Source: a virus. From it: 20,448 nt of DNA. Location: the IMG/VR virus record IMGVR_UViG_3300009129_000112, positions 1 to 20,448 of that record; one strand, given 5' to 3'. A program made the translations under genes and the position numbers. A model generated the notes under the pieces. The model made no database searches. It was not told the origin of the DNA and worked only from the letters and a program-made list of their open reading frames with translations. This document shows positions 1-17,594 of the stretch, one piece after another; position 1 is the stretch's first letter, and each line of letters begins with the position of its first letter.

Positions 1-322
1 CTGCTTCAGCATCAAAATAGATCACCTTCATTCCCATCTTGTTGGCGTTAGCTGCTATAACGGTTGCCATAAACGATTTACCAGCAGATGAAAGACCTGC
101 AAGTTCTGTTATTCTGCCAACTGGAATCCCGGCTTTTTTGCCGGGATATATTGACCAATCCAGCAAAGATGAACCAGTTGGAATCCAATCTTTAATATGT
201 GCTGGGTTGTCATGTTCTAAATCATAAGCCGCTTCAATACCAAGCTTCTTATTTATTGCCTTCACCATATCGGTGGTATCAATCTTTCCCGGCTTAAGAG
301 CCATTTGTAATAGTTTTCCCAT
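1..322 (-). CDS. uvsX: UvsX/RecA-like recombinase (N-terminal part, runs off the left edge)
   Basis: Read from the reverse complement; the gene has no stop inside the window, so only the first 107 residues are present. The ATG at 322 follows a GGAGG site at good spacing. Residues 76-83 read GLSSAGKS, a Walker A loop (GxxxxGKS), after the lead-in GRITELA typical of RecA-class proteins. Residues 101-107 (IYFDAEA) match the RecA strand that carries the catalytic glutamate (here E106). The stretch WIPTGSSLLDW before the P-loop resembles the RecA/UvsX core entry. In T4-like phages UvsX coats single-stranded DNA for strand exchange and recombination-dependent replication, working with gp32, which is also in this window. 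It overlaps the end of the upstream gene by 29 bases, suggesting translational coupling. RecA and UvsX cannot be told apart from this fragment; UvsX is preferred because of the phage context. Confidence 0.88.
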   Translation of the reverse strand, partial: MGKLLQMALKPGKIDTTDMVKAINKKLGIEAAYDLEHDNPAHIKDWIPTGSSLLDWSIYPGKKAGIPVGRITELAGLSSAGKSFMATVIAANANKMGMKVIYFDAEA

Positions 323-908
323 TTAACCTCCAATAATTTTCTAAATCTTGCCTATTATTAATTTTTTGACCATGTTCTTTAATATATTTCCAAGGAATTT
401 TAGGATCATTCAATGAGGTTCCCACCTCTATTGTATAAAATAAACGTCCAAGATCCTCTTCATCTATTTGACCTTCCAACAAAGGAAGTATCTTTGTTTT
501 CGCTTCGATAGAGCCGAAGTATTTTTTCCTACCTTCATTAAAAGGTTTTACAACTTTTTCTTGAATCCAAGGATCTAAAGCATCAAGGGTCAGTGCATAA
601 TGTTCATTAAAATTGCCATTCCATTTGGCACCAGAATATTCACTAAAGACAAATATATTTGTTTTTTTCTTCCATTCTTCTACCTTTTTAAGGCCGAAGC
701 CCCTTGCCGTACTTACATCATTTTTAGACTTAAGTTTATTTTTGCGAATAACAAATTCTGGTTTTGTTTTAAGTTCTACTGTAACCTCTTCATTATCAAT
801 AAATGTTTTTGCGTCTGGCCAATATTGGTTACCTCTGTTGGTTTCTGAAAAATCAGAGAGGCCAAAATGTTTAATTTGGGCCTTTTCTCTAACATCATCT
901 TGTGCCAT
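294..908 (-). CDS. Candidate PD-(D/E)XK-fold endonuclease, 204 aa
   Basis: An upstream in-frame ATG (918-920) exists, but it directly precedes the GGAGG ribosome site; the ATG at 908 sits correctly spaced behind GGAGGATAAA and is the likely start. I do not recognise the family with certainty. Residues 31-47 show P31-D32, then E45-L46-K47 on a predicted beta strand (VTVELKTKP), the spacing of a PD-(D/E)XK nuclease core. The rest is charged and soluble, with no membrane segment or signal peptide. It lies between a ParB-like gene and uvsX, and its 3' end overlaps uvsX by 29 bases. This suggests a role in DNA processing, recombination or host DNA degradation. A restriction enzyme is possible, but no partner methyltransferase is adjacent. 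The nuclease call rests on one motif and is tentative; the coding call is firm. Confidence 0.6.
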   Translation of the reverse strand: MAQDDVREKAQIKHFGLSDFSETNRGNQYWPDAKTFIDNEEVTVELKTKPEFVIRKNKLKSKNDVSTARGFGLKKVEEWKKKTNIFVFSEYSGAKWNGNFNEHYALTLDALDPWIQEKVVKPFNEGRKKYFGSIEAKTKILPLLEGQIDEEDLGRLFYTIEVGTSLNDPKIPWKYIKEHGQKINNRQDLENYWRLNGKTITNGS

Positions 909-920
909 TTTATCCTCCAT

Positions 921-964: not shown

Positions 965-1903
965 TCATTGGTTAAGTTTCTTTTTAAGATGCTTTTTATA
1001 TCCTGAGAAACAGGATGACATCTTATTTTTACCAATAGTCGAACGCTGTGGGCTTTGATAGAATGACTCTATTATGCCCAAGGCAACCGACTCTTCGTGC
1101 ATATTAACAACACTGCCGCCTCTTTGTTTGAAGTCGGAGGCTACATTTCTTTGCTTACCTCTGGCGACAGACATGGCCCCGATGAAAGACTCAAAAGCAC
1201 TTGAAATACTCTTGTCGCCAAGAACACCAGTATTTTTGAATACATGGGCCAAACCACCAAGTAACTCATTTTGAGCCACCTTTTCATTAGTCCAAGTTTT
1301 TTGGATCAAGCTAGAGGCATTAATAACTGGACCTAAACCTGTTTTTTGAACAGTGTTTCTAAATCCGTTAATCTTGACTCTCCAAGCGGTGTTATTGTGT
1401 AACCCACTTGTTGCACCAACAGAGCTACCTTTTTCACCTGTTCCAAGCGACACACACAAGCCAGACTTTGCCAAGTTACGGCTATCCTGCATTGCACTTT
1501 GGTCGCCAGAATGAACTTGGTGAACAAATACCTCATCGGAACTGAGTGATTTTCGACCAGTTTTATTAATAATAACAAAGAGTTCACTTATCTGTTTTAA
1601 ACTATCAACTTTGATAACTTGAACTGGCATTGTTTTAGCGTTTGGAAAAGCTTTTTTCCACAACTGGCGGCGATGGTCGCCGTCGAACAACAATCTTGTT
1701 CCGTCTGGTAGTTCTGCTACCAGTGGTGGTTGCCATAGGCCCCGATGAAACCCACCAACACAACTAATATATTTCTTAATTGTTTGGGATTCCGTTTTCC
1801 TATTAAGATAGGAAGGAATGTTAACATCTATATCAATAACTTGGACACTCTTGTTCAAGTTGTTGACTACGAAGCTTCCATTTCCATATAATTTTATTGA
1901 CAT
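965..1903 (-). CDS. ParB/sulfiredoxin-like domain protein, 312 aa
   Basis: The start is set at the ATG at 1903, six bases after GGAGG; an in-frame ATG four codons upstream overlaps the ribosome site and is less likely. Residues about 55-115 look like a ParB/Srx-type N-terminal domain: QPPLVAELPDGTRLLFDGDH leads into H77-R78-R79, the G-x-H-R box, then a helix and the strand PVQVIKV. The following INKTGRKSL segment is also typical of DGQHR/ParB-like proteins of phages and mobile elements. The C-terminal 190 residues are Ser/Gly/Asn-rich with a very basic end (GYKKHLKKKLNQ). Such domains can bind DNA, bind CTP or act as nucleases. No helix-turn-helix was recognised and no parS-like site was found, so partition is not claimed. 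It is bounded by hairpins on both sides. Confidence 0.72.
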   Translation of the reverse strand: MSIKLYGNGSFVVNNLNKSVQVIDIDVNIPSYLNRKTESQTIKKYISCVGGFHRGLWQPPLVAELPDGTRLLFDGDHRRQLWKKAFPNAKTMPVQVIKVDSLKQISELFVIINKTGRKSLSSDEVFVHQVHSGDQSAMQDSRNLAKSGLCVSLGTGEKGSSVGATSGLHNNTAWRVKINGFRNTVQKTGLGPVINASSLIQKTWTNEKVAQNELLGGLAHVFKNTGVLGDKSISSAFESFIGAMSVARGKQRNVASDFKQRGGSVVNMHEESVALGIIESFYQSPQRSTIGKNKMSSCFSGYKKHLKKKLNQ

Positions 1904-1947
1904 TTTAACCTCCATTTTAGTTTCATATCAATTTGGCACATTTCAAC

Positions 1948-3295: not shown

Positions 3296-3345
3296 TGATT
3301 CTCCTTTATTTTAATGATTGCTTTTTTGTCTTAATTGACTCTTAT

Positions 3346-3374
3346 AATATAGCCGCTTTTGACTATATTGTCAA
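3346..3374 (-). promoter_or_regulatory. Sigma-70 promoter upstream of the small SH3-like gene
   Basis: The minus strand reads TTGACA (3374-3369), a 17-base spacer and TATATT (3351-3346), followed by ATAA. It lies between the methyltransferase stop and the next gene. It shares TTGACAATAT, an internal AAAA and CTATA-TATAA with the gp32 promoter, so the two look like copies of one promoter. Confidence 0.8.
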
Positions 3375-3383
3375 GTACTTTTT

Positions 3384-4253
3384 TTATTTTTTTCCTATCA
3401 TCAATATCTCCCTCGCTTTTTTGGCACTATGGGTGCCGTCAGCGTTTTTCTTCCTTCTCCCTGCTGTATAAGTTACGTCGAAATAGACTAACTCATGATT
3501 GCCTGTGCGTTTTTCAAAGAATTGATCACCGATATCTCTGTTAGACATCAATGTATACGCTCCCTTGTCAACACAGGTATTTAAAAATTTAATAACTCTT
3601 TCTTGCATCTTGTCATCAAAATCGACTCCATATTGTGTAAATGAACCTCTGTATGGTGGGTCCAGAAAGACGTATGAGTCGCTCTGTACATAAGGTGTAC
3701 TATCGGCAAAATCTCCGTCCAGCAATGTACACTGTTTGAGTGCTGTATGCCATGCTTTTACGTTATCTTTGTCGTATACCTTGGTCTTTTGATTTAGCAA
3801 GCCGCTTGGGGTCCCAAAGCGATTGTTGGTATTTTTATTAATTTGCCAAATGCCGTTAAATCCGGTTTTCATCAAGAAATAGAGTGACGCGCATTCTTCG
3901 GTCTTGGTCCACTTCTCATGATCATATGCATGTTCTTGTCGAAGAGCATAATAGAACTTCTTACGACCGTCTTTGTCCAAAGGTAAATATGCATCAGACA
4001 ACTGATCCATTCTTTTAAGAAACGGCTCTAAATCGCTTTTAATCGCTCGATATATGTTCATGATTGATTCATTATAATCATTAAGAACAAACTTTGCAGT
4101 TGGATTTAATTTATAGGCCCAAATAAACATTGCACCTCCGCCCAAAAATGGCTCAACATAATGATTAACAGTTTCAGGCAAATAAGGTGCATATTTTTTA
4201 AGCATCTTGTTCTTGCCACCAGCCCACATAAATAAAGGTTTCATCTTGCTCAT
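3384..4253 (-). CDS. Dam-type N6-adenine DNA methyltransferase, 289 aa
   Basis: This is a class alpha (Dam/EcoRV-like) enzyme transferring a methyl group from S-adenosylmethionine to adenine N6. Residues 8-14 (FMWAGGK) match the F-x-W-x-G-G-K motif, residues 33-41 (VEPFLGGGA) the SAM-binding motif I, and D198-P199-P200-Y201 the catalytic DPPY motif. The conserved Dam segment FLMKTGFNGIWQIN followed by NRFGTP lies near residues 126-149. The length is normal for the family and the gene looks intact. Its ATG overlaps the nuclease stop (ATGA), with AAGGAG inside the end of that gene, so the two are translationally coupled. The obvious role is to protect phage DNA from the partner nuclease. The recognition sequence cannot be read from the protein. 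Confidence 0.93.
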   Translation of the reverse strand: MSKMKPLFMWAGGKNKMLKKYAPYLPETVNHYVEPFLGGGAMFIWAYKLNPTAKFVLNDYNESIMNIYRAIKSDLEPFLKRMDQLSDAYLPLDKDGRKKFYYALRQEHAYDHEKWTKTEECASLYFLMKTGFNGIWQINKNTNNRFGTPSGLLNQKTKVYDKDNVKAWHTALKQCTLLDGDFADSTPYVQSDSYVFLDPPYRGSFTQYGVDFDDKMQERVIKFLNTCVDKGAYTLMSNRDIGDQFFEKRTGNHELVYFDVTYTAGRRKKNADGTHSAKKAREILMIGKK

Positions 4254-4765
4254 ATTATCTCCTTAGTTAAGGTTTCTATTTCCATTTCCAAGTAATCAAT
4301 CATATTTTGCTTCAACCAATCGCGTGAAAAGCCACCTTCATTCAAAAAACATGAAGGCCCCAAGTTGTGAAAAATGTTATATTTGCCTTTGTGGGGCCTA
4401 TAAAGAGTTTTCCAGATCGGGTTATTGGGGCGAACACCAGAGCCAATTGCATATGTTACCAATGGGCAGCGGGGATTAGTAGACCTAATATGATCATAAT
4501 TTTTAAACCAACGCTCTATGGCATTTCCTTCGTCATTTTGTTTCTTTCCCTCAAAGCTAGCTATAAGATGACCATCATAGAACCAAATTCCGCCATCGGG
4601 CTGGCAAGCACCGATACCATCAAGAAAGTATTCTTTGGGCAATTTATGTTTTCTTTCAAGAAGAGGATATTTTTCCATCATCTCATGGGCCACTTCTTTA
4701 GATATTTTTCGTATCATATCGTCATGTGATTTAGATTTTTCATCATATGCTTTTTTTCCTTGCAT
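4250..4765 (-). CDS. EcoRI-like type II restriction endonuclease, 171 aa
   Basis: Predicted to cut double-stranded DNA at an AATT-containing site. The core is a PD-(D/E)XK nuclease: P56-D57-G58-G59-I60, then E72-G73-K74. Four residues later comes DEGNAIERWFKN. EcoRI carries PDGGI, then E-A-K, then GNAIER, whose Asn, Glu and Arg contact bases in GAATTC; here N81, E84 and R85 keep that pattern. The protein is much shorter than EcoRI (277 aa): the loop between the catalytic Lys and GNAIER and part of the C-terminus are missing. The ATG at 4765 follows AAGGAG, one base after the stop of the tubulin-like gene. It overlaps the Dam-type methyltransferase by 4 bases, which supports a restriction-modification pair. 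EcoRI-family membership is strong from the motifs; the exact target is inference. Confidence 0.85.
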   Translation of the reverse strand: MQGKKAYDEKSKSHDDMIRKISKEVAHEMMEKYPLLERKHKLPKEYFLDGIGACQPDGGIWFYDGHLIASFEGKKQNDEGNAIERWFKNYDHIRSTNPRCPLVTYAIGSGVRPNNPIWKTLYRPHKGKYNIFHNLGPSCFLNEGGFSRDWLKQNMIDYLEMEIETLTKEII

Positions 4766-4766
4766 A

Positions 4767-5570
4767 CTATTCTCCTTGGATGAAGTGGGTTGATTTTACT
4801 GAGTAATAAAACGATTGCTCATGCGGAGAAGAGAAAACTGCAAAAGATGAAAGAATTTCATTTTCCTTGTCCATTGCAACTCTATCTGTAATCAGCGAAA
4901 GAATATCGTTTTGTTCTTCAAGTTCCTCTTGATTGATACTATACATGTATCCCGTTTCCTTTATATTGTCAAGGGGAAATACTAACTTTTCTTCACTTTC
5001 TTCTAAGGAACCCAATCCAAAGGTTCTAATCCTTGAAATTTCTTTTGGCTTTGCAATGGAGCCCAGAACTGGGTCTTCTTTATTAAAATATTCTATTGTC
5101 TCGATAATACTTGCAATCGTTCTGTTAACATTCTCATATACTGAACTAATTGGACCTTCACCAACAATACTAACCATTTGTTCATTTGAGACAAGATATA
5201 CGGCGTTTAAGAGCCCTGAGCGTGCAAACTGCTGAAGGACACCAAAGCATACTCTATGCCTCTTTAATTGAATTGGGGTCGAGAGAAGTTCATCAGGACA
5301 AAGGTAAACAACGTTTATTGTTTTATTCTTTATCTTCTCCAGAATTCTTAAAGTGGCACCAGATACTTTTCCAGCACCACTAACAAATACCCAACACTCT
5401 TTTGCGCGGAATCCAAGCTCTTTCTTAAATGCGGGACATTTAGCCTCGTAATCTTCAACCTTTTTGCAAGTCGAAGGAAACTTATCCGCAGTGAATAATA
5501 TTTTTTTATGACCTTTGGAAAAACAAGACGCAACGTTGCATCCAGCTTGGCCAATTCCTATAACTACCAC
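4767..5570 (-). CDS. Tubulin/FtsZ-like GTPase, 267 aa
   Basis: Members of this superfamily bind GTP and form filaments; phage examples (PhuZ, TubZ) position DNA or capsids. Residues 2-12 (VVIGIGQAGCN) fit the first strand and T1 loop of tubulin/FtsZ (GxGQAG). Residues 61-73 (VFVSGAGKVSGAT) align with VTAGMGGGTGTGA of FtsZ, but the signature glycine box is degenerate: only parts of GGGTGSG remain. Then follow a strand with a proline turn (NVVYLCPDELLS), a helix, the strand NAVYLVSNEQM (compare LIVIPNDRLL), a helix with VNRTIASII, and N163-x-E165-D166 where the catalytic T7 loop (NxDxxD) would lie. It is shorter than PhuZ (about 315 aa). The start is GTG at 5570 behind GAGAGG, overlapping the polymerase stop by 7 bases. 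The fold call is by eye; GTPase activity is uncertain. Confidence 0.72.
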   Translation of the reverse strand: MVVIGIGQAGCNVASCFSKGHKKILFTADKFPSTCKKVEDYEAKCPAFKKELGFRAKECWVFVSGAGKVSGATLRILEKIKNKTINVVYLCPDELLSTPIQLKRHRVCFGVLQQFARSGLLNAVYLVSNEQMVSIVGEGPISSVYENVNRTIASIIETIEYFNKEDPVLGSIAKPKEISRIRTFGLGSLEESEEKLVFPLDNIKETGYMYSINQEELEEQNDILSLITDRVAMDKENEILSSFAVFSSPHEQSFYYSVKSTHFIQGE

Positions 5571-6754
5571 ATTAACCTCTCAAAGTTTTTAAGATCCTTC
5601 CCAATATGTACTGATGTGTTGAATATACCTAGTTTTGTATCGCTGAAAAGCTCCAATAGTGTTGGAAGAACCTGCCTTTCTTCTGTTTTTAAATCGATGA
5701 TAATCGAGTCATGAACTACAGAATGGACAAATGACTCTTTATCCTTCAGAAACTTATTAATTTTAATTGCTGAATATAAGCAGTTATCCGAAGAAGAAGA
5801 TTGAAGCAAGTAGTTTAATGCATGGAAGTCATCTGATTGGATCTCTCTTCCAAACGGGGTTGAAACAACGCCATTATTATAATATTTTTTTAGGACCTCG
5901 GATCGATTGTAAAACTTCTCTGTTTCTACATCAGTTGAGTTCGGATTATAAAGCCAAGCAAAGAACCTCTGTTTTGCCTTTGCTCTCGTATCTACTTCGT
6001 GGTAGATATTCTTCATATTCCATTCATGAATATCGCCCTCTGGTTGTTCTTTTCCGGCCAATGATAAAAGCGTTCTAATCTCGGCCCCATTGAAGTCCAA
6101 TTGGATAAAAACGTCATTCTTTGGAATCACACAATCGGCTATTTCTTTCTTCAAGTTGAGAATCGGAAATGACCCTGTTTTCGTGGTCAAACGTCCGGTT
6201 ATAGAACCCCATACATCGTACATAATACGCTGTTCTTCGCCTTTAACTTGGTTAAATAGGTGGTACGCCTTCCTATCATTCTTGCTATGCCTAAACAGCC
6301 GATTTAGGTCAATAGAGACGATGTTCTCAGAAATATCTTCGGTCATTTCAAGTAGGTCAACCATGAACTGATGGTTCTTTGGTTTTTCAAGATTTTCAAA
6401 GATCCATTGGCAAATTTCGTTCTTTACTTCGCAATAGTGGCGTAGGTGGTGATCGGGAACAATTTCAAACAAACAAACATCATCAAAGCGGATTTTGGCG
6501 TTTGTCATCGACCTGAGAAATCCTTTGATTTTCCTTGATCTCACTTCAAAGCGGTCAACGAGGTGAGGAGGGCCAACCTCTCCAATGGGCTTTCCTTGAC
6601 ACCATATTTGAGCATATTCGATGTTCTTCCCGGCGAGATTGCGGTTCCATGACCATGTTTGATCAAAGCCATTTGGAAGCTTATCGTATGTGAAAGATCC
6701 ATTAGAATAAACGCCGAAACATTGTTCTCGGTCATCCAAAATTTGAAATATCAT
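5564..6754 (-). CDS. polA: Minimal family A DNA polymerase (no exonuclease domain), 396 aa
   Basis: Replicative or repair DNA synthesis. The C-terminal 220 residues carry the PolA palm and fingers in order: G187-R188-L (TGRLTT), motif A QLDFNGAEIR with D220 and E225, D241-I-H243, motif B with R257, K261, F265 and Y269 at the Klenow O-helix spacing (R754, K758, F762, Y766), then A312-x-N314 with Q318 and D323, and motif C VVHDS with D349. The usual glutamate after that aspartate (HDE) is Ser350. Phe265 predicts strong rejection of dideoxynucleotides. The N-terminal 180 residues lack recognisable 3'-5' exonuclease motifs, and the protein is far shorter than T7 polymerase (704 aa). T4 itself uses a family B enzyme. 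The ATG at 6754 follows AGAGG, 11 bases after the structural gene, with the tubulin-like gene coupled behind it. Confidence 0.88.
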   Translation of the reverse strand: MIFQILDDREQCFGVYSNGSFTYDKLPNGFDQTWSWNRNLAGKNIEYAQIWCQGKPIGEVGPPHLVDRFEVRSRKIKGFLRSMTNAKIRFDDVCLFEIVPDHHLRHYCEVKNEICQWIFENLEKPKNHQFMVDLLEMTEDISENIVSIDLNRLFRHSKNDRKAYHLFNQVKGEEQRIMYDVWGSITGRLTTKTGSFPILNLKKEIADCVIPKNDVFIQLDFNGAEIRTLLSLAGKEQPEGDIHEWNMKNIYHEVDTRAKAKQRFFAWLYNPNSTDVETEKFYNRSEVLKKYYNNGVVSTPFGREIQSDDFHALNYLLQSSSSDNCLYSAIKINKFLKDKESFVHSVVHDSIIIDLKTEERQVLPTLLELFSDTKLGIFNTSVHIGKDLKNFERLMW

Positions 6755-14855: not shown

Positions 14856-17594
14856 TCATGCTACTGAAAAGCTAGTATCAGCTTCGGCATCAGCTATTGC
14901 TTCTTTAAATAGCTTCTCTGTTGCAGGTCCGTCTAATTTTAGTGTCACTTTCATCTTTTCTTTGTCCTTTCCGAGCCCCATAATGCTGTCCACGACACTG
15001 CCCAAGGCACCAGCGAGACCACCACCAGCGGCACCTTTCATTTTTTCTGCTGAAGTTCCGGTTGATATTAAAGCCATATTTTCCAAAACAGAAGTTATCT
15101 TTACTCCACTTCCGGCCTCCAAGGATTGAAGTTGAGTTTGCGCTTTCCAGAGAGAGGGTCCGAGTTCGCCAATAGATTTAGATAAATCAACATCTCCTAA
15201 TTTAGCCAATTCTGTGGCCATAGTTCCAATGGCCTCTGCCATTGATGCCATCGCTAAAGCTGCGCCAATGACACCAAGAAATAATCCTGCCAAAATGCCC
15301 ACTGCGGCCCAACTTACCGGATTTGAACCAAGGGCGTTTAAGGCCAGTGTGATAGCAGCGATTCCCAAAGCTATAAGGAAAAATCCTGCTGCTGCTTGAA
15401 AAGCAGAATCTCCAGCTTCAACAAATATATCAACAAGATATGCAAAAGATAAAATAATGGCAACAATTCCCAAAGCAATCAAAACTAAAGCACCAGCAAC
15501 ACCAGCCATTGCGCCAGCAAACGACCAAACTCCAGCAGATGCGCCGCCAGCGGCGGTTCCGAGCGCACTAACACCACCAGCGGCTGTTGAAGACGCAGTG
15601 CCAAATAATGGTATCAGTCCATTCAAGGCCGTAATCGGAAGATTCGCGGCGGCGGCGGCGGTTCCGAGGGTTCCAGTAGCTGTTGCCAAGGCCGCCAACC
15701 CACCAGCGGCGACAACGGCTTTTGAAAGGGCCGTCATTTGGACTGCGAGTGCCCCAACAGGGACAGCAGCAGGTGTTGATGCTGCTCCCAAAGCTGAAAT
15801 TGCTGGTACTAATGTAGCTGTTATTGAGATACCAGCAGCCGGGGCGTGCTTGGCTATTTTTTTGATAGCTTTAGATTGGGCAATAAGCCCTCCAGCACTA
15901 GCAAAAGAAGCAACCTTTAAGGCTTTTATGGGCCCAAGTATGGTTGAAAGGATTGATGTTAAAACAAAAAAGACAGCAACAACTCCACCAATCTTTACAA
16001 GGAGACCATCTTGCCACGATAGCCATTCAGCCAATTTTTCAATAAACGGGACCAAAGTTTCTTCAACAAACGGACCCATTGTTATTGCAAATTCCATAAA
16101 TGCGGCCTTAAGTTTCTCAACAACAGACATTGCTTGCATCATCCTTTCTTGAAATTCTTCCTCGGCTTTGGCGTTGTCTTTGGCGGCATCTTTAAAGCTT
16201 CTATATTCTTTTAAGTTCATACCAAAAATCTTTTGAGCTTTAGACATATCTTTAATGCCCACTGTGGCTGCGATTGCTTTTTGAGTAAAGCGATCCATAT
16301 TTTTAAACTGTTTGCCTTGAGCTTGCATGGTTCTCATTAATATTTCAATTCTTTCTTCTTCGTTCGCCATTAACATTTTAGTTGAAGAAAGTTGAGTTCC
16401 CATAATAGCATTTAGTTTAGCAGTGGATTCAGCAGCACCGGCAAAAGTATCAAATTTATCTGCAAGACCCAAAAGATCATCAACCTCAACACCAGCGGCT
16501 TGTGCGGCGGCGGCCACACCTTTAAATATTTTTGGGGCCTGTTTGCCATAGACAGCCAAAGACTTCATTGCCTTATTGAAGCCTTTTGTTATTTTACTTG
16601 CTGACATGCCTAAAGCCTTTCCAACCATAGCCATTTCTTTAGTGGCATTTGCTGCTGCTGCTCCTGCTAGTCCTAAGTTTTTACTCATAAACATAATACT
16701 TTCTGATGAGTCACTTCCTGAAACTTTCAATTTTTCTAAACCAGCAACAATATATTCCATTTCTTCGCGGGTCTGAGAACTCAAATTTAAAAATCCGGGG
16801 AATGCATTAAAAAGATCCCCGGCGGCTTTTGCTGCATCTTTGGCAGATATTCCAAAACGTCTAAAGTTTGATCCAACTTCTGCTATGTCATTATACAAAG
16901 CCTTACCTGCGCCTGTCTGCGCTGCGAAGGAGGCTGTTGCTTCGTCAACCGCAAGTGCATATTTTATTGTTTGTTGTGTAATATTTGTAAGCAAGCCAAT
17001 AGCGAGACTCATTGGATTAATAACTTCTTTGAAGGCCATTTTCATCCCGGCTATGCCGCCTTTAGATCTGGCAAATTGTCCTATCGATATCATATTGCCA
17101 ACTATTTTGTTTCCTTTTTGAGAAACTATTCCCATATGAGTTGCCATATCTTGGAACATTGGGCGAAGCTTTTTTTGGGCGGCTTTGCCAGCTTCACCCA
17201 TTTCTTCATACGCCTCTTTGAGCTTCAATGCCTCTTTTTCCGTTTTTTCCATCTGGTCGCGGGTGAAACCCATTTGGGCGGCAAATTTAGCCTCGGCGGT
17301 GGCGAGGTCTTCTTCGGACTCAATAAGATCGTCCATTGCTTCTTTTTTAGCTTTTAAAAACTCATTTGCTGCTTCGTATTGTGCAGTTGTGTCTCGCAAG
17401 ATTCCAGCAAGTTCCATTTCGCGAGCGGATCTTTCTAAAGTAGCACGGGAAGACTCCTCAGACAATTTGTTATTTTCCAACAGCTTGTCATTCATTTCTT
17501 TATAAATCTCTAGTTTTTCTTTTTCAGTGAGATTTAGTTTTTTATTTGCTTCTGTTTGTTGTTCTGTATTTTGAGTCTTCTTATCTTTGGACAT
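14856..17594 (-). CDS. Tail tape measure protein, 912 aa
   Basis: Sets tail length and occupies the tube lumen; its end may enter the host envelope during DNA injection. The N-terminal 150 residues are a Lys/Glu-rich coiled coil. The middle is Ala- and Lys-rich helical, and there are strongly hydrophobic stretches at about residues 540-580 (VVAVFFVLTSILSTILGPIK) and 685-790 (ALVLIALGIVAIILSFAYLV and others). That mix of coiled coil, Ala/Gly-rich low complexity and membrane-like segments is characteristic of tape measures. At about 0.15 nm per residue, 912 residues would imply a tail near 137 nm, by the rule known from lambda-like phages. The ATG at 17594 follows GAGG, three bases after the upstream stop. 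Repeated GCG/GCC codons in the Ala-rich part create long open frames on the other strand. Confidence 0.92.
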   Translation of the reverse strand: MSKDKKTQNTEQQTEANKKLNLTEKEKLEIYKEMNDKLLENNKLSEESSRATLERSAREMELAGILRDTTAQYEAANEFLKAKKEAMDDLIESEEDLATAEAKFAAQMGFTRDQMEKTEKEALKLKEAYEEMGEAGKAAQKKLRPMFQDMATHMGIVSQKGNKIVGNMISIGQFARSKGGIAGMKMAFKEVINPMSLAIGLLTNITQQTIKYALAVDEATASFAAQTGAGKALYNDIAEVGSNFRRFGISAKDAAKAAGDLFNAFPGFLNLSSQTREEMEYIVAGLEKLKVSGSDSSESIMFMSKNLGLAGAAAANATKEMAMVGKALGMSASKITKGFNKAMKSLAVYGKQAPKIFKGVAAAAQAAGVEVDDLLGLADKFDTFAGAAESTAKLNAIMGTQLSSTKMLMANEEERIEILMRTMQAQGKQFKNMDRFTQKAIAATVGIKDMSKAQKIFGMNLKEYRSFKDAAKDNAKAEEEFQERMMQAMSVVEKLKAAFMEFAITMGPFVEETLVPFIEKLAEWLSWQDGLLVKIGGVVAVFFVLTSILSTILGPIKALKVASFASAGGLIAQSKAIKKIAKHAPAAGISITATLVPAISALGAASTPAAVPVGALAVQMTALSKAVVAAGGLAALATATGTLGTAAAAANLPITALNGLIPLFGTASSTAAGGVSALGTAAGGASAGVWSFAGAMAGVAGALVLIALGIVAIILSFAYLVDIFVEAGDSAFQAAAGFFLIALGIAAITLALNALGSNPVSWAAVGILAGLFLGVIGAALAMASMAEAIGTMATELAKLGDVDLSKSIGELGPSLWKAQTQLQSLEAGSGVKITSVLENMALISTGTSAEKMKGAAGGGLAGALGSVVDSIMGLGKDKEKMKVTLKLDGPATEKLFKEAIADAEADTSFSVA

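Follow-up and report, generated by a model that had tools for sequence, protein, structure and literature searches.

Does a lytic phage carry a restriction-modification (R-M) system of its own and, if so, which DNA would it cut? The question is raised by two overlapping genes in IMG/VR virus record IMGVR_UViG_3300009129_000112, a 20,448-bp fragment of a marine phage that is referred to here, at its full length, as the window. An initial annotation, made from the sequence alone, described these genes as an EcoRI-like nuclease and a Dam-type adenine methyltransferase, with which a phage could modify itself and cut unmodified host or rival DNA. Our analyses indicate that the pair is very probably a compact Type IIP R-M system of a lytic-type myovirus, in which the nuclease would cut AATT and a D12-class enzyme would provide the methylation. 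If so, a complete and unusually small Type II R-M system occurs across marine T4-like cyanophages and in at least one other myovirus lineage, and R-M is here used by viruses, not against them.

The gene pair and its carrier

Both genes lie on the minus strand. The nuclease gene (4250..4765) encodes 171 aa and the methyltransferase gene (3384..4253) encodes 289 aa, and the two share an ATGA (4250..4253) that contains the stop of the former and the start of the latter. The two ORFs agree exactly with the initial annotation, and the overlap is 4 bp. A 55.5-kb contig (L002, also G001) holds an identical copy of the pair, together with genes for a tail sheath, a baseplate hub, a gp32-like SSB, a DnaB-type helicase and a family A polymerase. 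The tail sheath and baseplate hub genes identify the carrier as a myovirus. It is of lytic type and outside the known cyanophages, to which megablast gave no match.

Several neighboring genes deserve mention. A ParB/DGQHR-like gene (965..1915, minus strand) is related to PHROG 2558 (1.5e-4) and to the protein encoded between nuclease and methyltransferase in phage S-RIM2 (BLASTP, 7e-7). Adjoining it, a 208-aa ORF (294-920, minus strand) has PD...ExK-like spacing (WPDAKTF...TVELKTK) and no family match; it is possibly a second nuclease. On the minus strand of the parent contig, L068, an adenylosuccinate synthetase-like protein (16379-17383) matches the PurZ-type PHROG 1211. In this protein GDEGKGK is retained, including the catalytic Asp of PurA, so it is PurA-like and a 2-aminoadenine genome is not supported. 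The same strand of the contig has ClpS-like adaptor and phosphate-permease-like genes (1879-2199 and 3311-4393), recognized by eye only.

A short nuclease related to EcoRI

The initial annotation placed PDGGI, E-x-K and GNAIER in the order in which they occur in EcoRI, and profile alignment with hhalign puts all three in register. PDGGI (residues 56-60; 4586..4600, minus strand) contains the predicted catalytic Asp57 and corresponds to P90-D91-G-G of EcoRI, with Asp57 at D91. The predicted catalytic Glu and Lys of E72-G-K74 (4544..4552, minus strand) align with E111-A-K113. GNAIER (residues 80-85; 4511..4528, minus strand) corresponds to EcoRI residues 140-145, of which Asn141, Ala142 and Arg145 contact the AATT bases (PMC4081073). 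Since GNAIER is the AATT-contacting segment of EcoRI, an AATT core is predicted for the phage nuclease. P56, D57, E72, K74, G80-N81-A82 and R85 are invariant over 36 phage members. The protein is also, as had been noted, about 100 residues shorter than EcoRI (171 versus 277 residues), and the loop from the catalytic Lys to GNAIER is nearly deleted, with 5 residues versus 26.

The window nuclease belongs to PHROG 2400, a family of unknown function (2e-35). Its match to the Pfam EcoRI family (PF02963; 1.3e-3, 18.3 bits) is under the gathering score of 22, and the nucleases of S-RIM2, S-BM1 and S-CREM2 gave no match to PF02963. A profile of 36 phage sequences had EcoRI entries as its best matches in PDB (E = 0.0025). 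In hhalign, the 36-member profile matched an EcoRI-family profile (96.5%, E = 8e-10, score 68.8), far above 30 column-shuffled controls (maximum score 16.9) and a reversed one (15.1). By these profile comparisons, the phage nuclease is homologous to the EcoRI family beyond chance.

AlphaFold2 models were confident (pLDDT 87.6 for the window nuclease, and 87.0), with the element order H-E-E-E-H-E-H-E-H and a strand order compatible with EcoRI. Foldseek searches of PDB with the two models returned nothing below E = 0.001; XPF/Mus81 domains were listed and EcoRI was not retrieved. Membership in the EcoRI fold thus rests on sequence profiles. At one locus (L052:1569-2140), the nuclease ORF is broken into two overlapping frames, as a result of either a frameshift in a pseudogene or misassembly.

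A D12 methyltransferase that is not a GATC Dam

The methyltransferase matches Pfam D12 (PF02086, 6e-35), PHROG 56 and TIGR00571 (168 bits, cut-off 115). FMWAGGK (4212..4232), EPFLGGGA and DPPY (3651..3662, minus strand, as are all motifs of this gene) are present as initially reported, the last aligned with the catalytic DPPY of DpnM and EcoDam. With these two enzymes it shares the D12 fold class, W-x-GGK and DPPY. The term Dam-type therefore holds for the protein class (D12/alpha). It fails for specificity: EcoDam Lys9 and Arg124, which we take to be the GATC-reading residues, are both replaced in paired enzymes of the window type, Lys9 by a hydrophobic residue, Met or Ile (Met in FMWAGGK) and Arg124 by Gln (in FNGIWQ, 3843..3860). 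These replacements rule out a GATC-specific Dam. Among the matches listed, F[IMV]W[AC]GGK and FNG[IV]xQ are common to nuclease-paired methyltransferases; the exception is the more distant enzyme of S-CREM2, which keeps the Lys. S-RIM2 and S-BM1 encode a further D12 enzyme at another place in the genome, clearly distinct from the paired one. The partner enzyme is predicted to act on AATT, the same site as the nuclease.

Distribution of the gene pair

By tblastn, relatives of the nuclease were found solely in 65 Synechococcus phage records (S-RIM2, S-BM1 and S-CREM2). A profile scan added 52 IMG/VR loci, the window's twin among them, giving 55 nuclease loci with the three phages; these are metagenomic fragments and related lineages. 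A scan of genome contigs for bacterial members yielded no confirmed relative. The S-CREM2 nuclease is already annotated in GenBank as 'restriction endonuclease EcoRI' but receives no discussion in the S-CREM2 paper.

A D12 methyltransferase gene follows downstream on the same strand at 48 of the 55 loci. The two genes are adjacent at 31 of these, with the exact -4 overlap of the window at 23; a ParB-like PHROG 2558 gene lies between them at 10 and other genes at 7. The remaining seven loci have no downstream methyltransferase, two of them being cut by the contig end.

PHROG 2558 genes between nuclease and methyltransferase recur in L003 (gene at 5542-6654), L009, L013, L018, L019, L026, L031, L039, L040 and L052. 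In the window and in L034 such a gene is found downstream of the pair, and at other loci PHROG 5778 or 33124 genes fill the in-between slot. The ParB/DGQHR-like gene is a possible third, accessory component of the cassette.

AATT depletion in phages carrying the nuclease

Median AATT O/E is 0.29 in nuclease carriers versus 0.87 in 12 Kyanoviridae, mostly with Synechococcus hosts, that are nuclease-negative by profile search. When 16 palindromic tetramers were compared between carriers and non-carriers, only AATT was depleted (p = 1.3e-5; next lowest p, 0.094), these p-values being optimistic because several of the compared lineages are related. AATT O/E ranges from 0.65 to 0.99 across the 12 controls and from 0.08 to 0.82 across 19 carriers with a methyltransferase. 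The genome-wide signature is one of a nuclease that endangers AATT sites of the very phages that encode it. AATT persists in methyltransferase-bearing carriers and is absent in two lineages in which no methyltransferase was seen.

Surviving AATT sites in the depleted sets have no strict flank requirement, which points to bare AATT, a 4-bp site. The 6-bp sites GAATTC and CAATTG were ruled out on the same grounds, and also by contigs (G002-G004, see below) from which all AATT is gone. The recognition site of the nuclease is therefore likely to be palindromic AATT. The window phage itself has an AATT O/E of 0.79, inside the nuclease-negative range; for this phage, an AATT site would rest on homology and would imply full protection by its methyltransferase.

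Other tetramers are also lost in these phages. Most Kyanoviridae sampled (L136-L161, G002-G005) have no CCGG or almost none, whether or not they carry the nuclease. TTAA is fully absent in 40 kb of S-ShM2 (L152-L153), a phage without the AATT nuclease, and GATC in S-M1 (L138-L139) is at 0.21 of expectation. The latter two losses may be signs of further nucleases, of phage or host origin.

Carriers with no methyltransferase seen

Loss of AATT is complete in two related lineages of nuclease carriers. G003 (112 kb) has none of 339 expected sites, G004 represents the same phage (99.99%), and G002 (74 kb; 87% identical) has none of 233. Shuffling of synonymous codons in the ORFs produced 451 AATT sites in G003 and 323 in G002, versus 0 observed. 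AATT and CCGG are the only ones of 256 tetramers absent in G002-G004; among nuclease-negative cyanophages, CCGG is missing from most and AATT from none. Searches of these contigs with three family profiles (PF02086, PF01555 and PF05869), tblastn and a PPY/PPF-motif scan found neither the usual partner nor an alternative methyltransferase, the contigs being partial, so that such a gene could sit outside them. We see an even chance that these G002-G004 phages keep an AATT nuclease without a methyltransferase, and that their self-immunity would come from complete site extinction and not from DNA modification. The nuclease would then be a weapon with which the phage cuts any host or rival genome containing AATT.

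Contigs in which no methyltransferase was found have an oxygenase-like gene (L020:5467-6054 and L032:5485-6054), judged by eye to be of the 2OG-Fe(II) type, that overlaps the 3' end of the nuclease gene and occupies the slot that the methyltransferase has in relatives. The sole group off the simple pattern consists of G005 and L041, with an intact nuclease, near-normal AATT and no methyltransferase in the fragment. G005 (L088-L089) is a 23-kb fragment with AATT at 0.73. The partner methyltransferase of this group may lie outside the fragments.

Alternative explanations

AATT avoidance could have been imposed by restriction enzymes of the hosts; the methyltransferase would then protect the phage from restriction and the nuclease of the phage would be incidental. 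Phages are known to respond to host restriction by losing sites (PMC6286503), and the CCGG loss across Kyanoviridae resembles it. AATT behaves differently: its depletion tracks the nuclease gene, whose catalytic residues are invariant, and the 12 nuclease-negative Kyanoviridae have AATT at 0.65-0.99 of expectation. We rejected host-imposed avoidance on these controls and consider it very unlikely; nuclease-negative close relatives with normal AATT on the same hosts have largely been seen already. Still slightly less probable is that a homing-type or DNA-processing PD-(D/E)xK enzyme happens to lie beside an unrelated orphan Dam. Cyanophages do have homing nucleases and other D12 methyltransferases, the methyltransferase was not seen in some carriers, and the structural search listed XPF/Mus81 domains in place of EcoRI. 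Such an enzyme would leave unexplained why the nearest relation is EcoRI, why site depletion is specific to one tetramer, and why the overlap recurs with methyltransferases of a single signature, distinct from the second D12 enzyme of these phages.

The pair could also be a genuine R-M system that mainly stabilizes its own locus, as a selfish addiction element, or that has decayed to a remnant, in neither case attacking host or rival DNA. Selfish behavior is known from R-M systems, the window phage has no AATT depletion, and the nuclease frame is split in L052; on the other hand, the active site is invariant in 36 members, and the site loss, strong and still under way in many carriers, implies that the enzyme is active. 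We regard this possibility as unlikely, if less so than the two above.

Proposed function

A phage R-M pair, as first proposed, is strongly supported by the overlapping genes in many phages, the invariant catalytic residues and the AATT depletion found only in nuclease carriers. In the mechanism we propose, a stripped-down EcoRI relative would act as a dimer and cut unmodified AATT, and the D12 enzyme would methylate an adenine of AATT on phage DNA. The ATGA overlap would allow the pair to be co-translated, beginning with the nuclease. In an infected cell, this enzyme would cut AATT that lacks methylation, in the host chromosome and in competing phages, while methylation shields the phage DNA; phages in which no methyltransferase was seen would be shielded by having no AATT. 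The partial depletion in methyltransferase-bearing carriers suggests that protection is not instantaneous, perhaps because the nuclease is made first or because replication outruns methylation. We infer a role in infection, either in host DNA degradation or in the exclusion of rivals.

R-M in viruses, nucleases of EcoRI type and methyltransferases of the D12 class are all known already, as is the S-CREM2 annotation. The literature searched contained no earlier account of the cassette, nor of cyanophages avoiding AATT. As far as that literature shows, the spread of the cassette, the predicted AATT site, the non-GATC methyltransferase and the site-purged lineage apparently without a methyltransferase are new. 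The AATT site is predicted from site extinction, in agreement with the recognition motif. The system would offer a minimal EcoRI scaffold, a bacteriophage counterpart to chlorovirus R-M and a case of a phage apparently immune to its own nuclease through loss of a four-letter word from its genome.

Comparison with known systems

EcoRI (PF02963; 1CKQ, 1ERI, 2OXV) and RsrI share with the phage system the PD...E-x-K site, GNAIER and a gene beside an adenine methyltransferase. The phage nuclease differs in its length, its short Lys-GNAIER loop and its viral location, its predicted site is AATT and not GAATTC, and its partner is a D12 enzyme and not a member of the EcoRI_methylase family (PF13651). 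MluCI cuts AATT itself. Both MunI and MluCI are AATT-core nucleases and have been grouped with EcoRI as possible mosaics (PMC4081073); what they share with the phage enzyme would be the AATT core.

The initial annotation considered a Dam-class partner unusual for an EcoRI-type nuclease. There is a precedent on plasmid pCP157_17 of Paracoccus marcusii (L058), where overlapping genes encode an EcoRI-family nuclease and a D12 methyltransferase, so phages are not alone in having this combination. The plasmid nuclease is of intermediate length (238 aa), the methyltransferase gene comes first, and the D12 enzyme is only distantly related to that of the phage. Closest to the window are the S-RIM2, S-BM1 and S-CREM2 cassettes, whose nucleases belong to the same PHROG 2400 family (36-40% identical). 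The methyltransferase type of the window recurs in S-RIM2 and S-BM1 (about 50% identical), with the ParB-like gene in between in S-RIM2; in S-CREM2, two genes separate the pair, and the methyltransferase is 33% identical to that of the window. Among other viruses, the chloroviruses (CviAI/CviAII of PBCV-1) likewise have a virus-encoded nuclease adjoining its methyltransferase, with short sites, and degradation of host DNA has been ascribed to that nuclease (PMC7019647). On the chlorovirus side, the host is eukaryotic, the enzymes are carried in virions and the sites, GATC and CATG, are unrelated.
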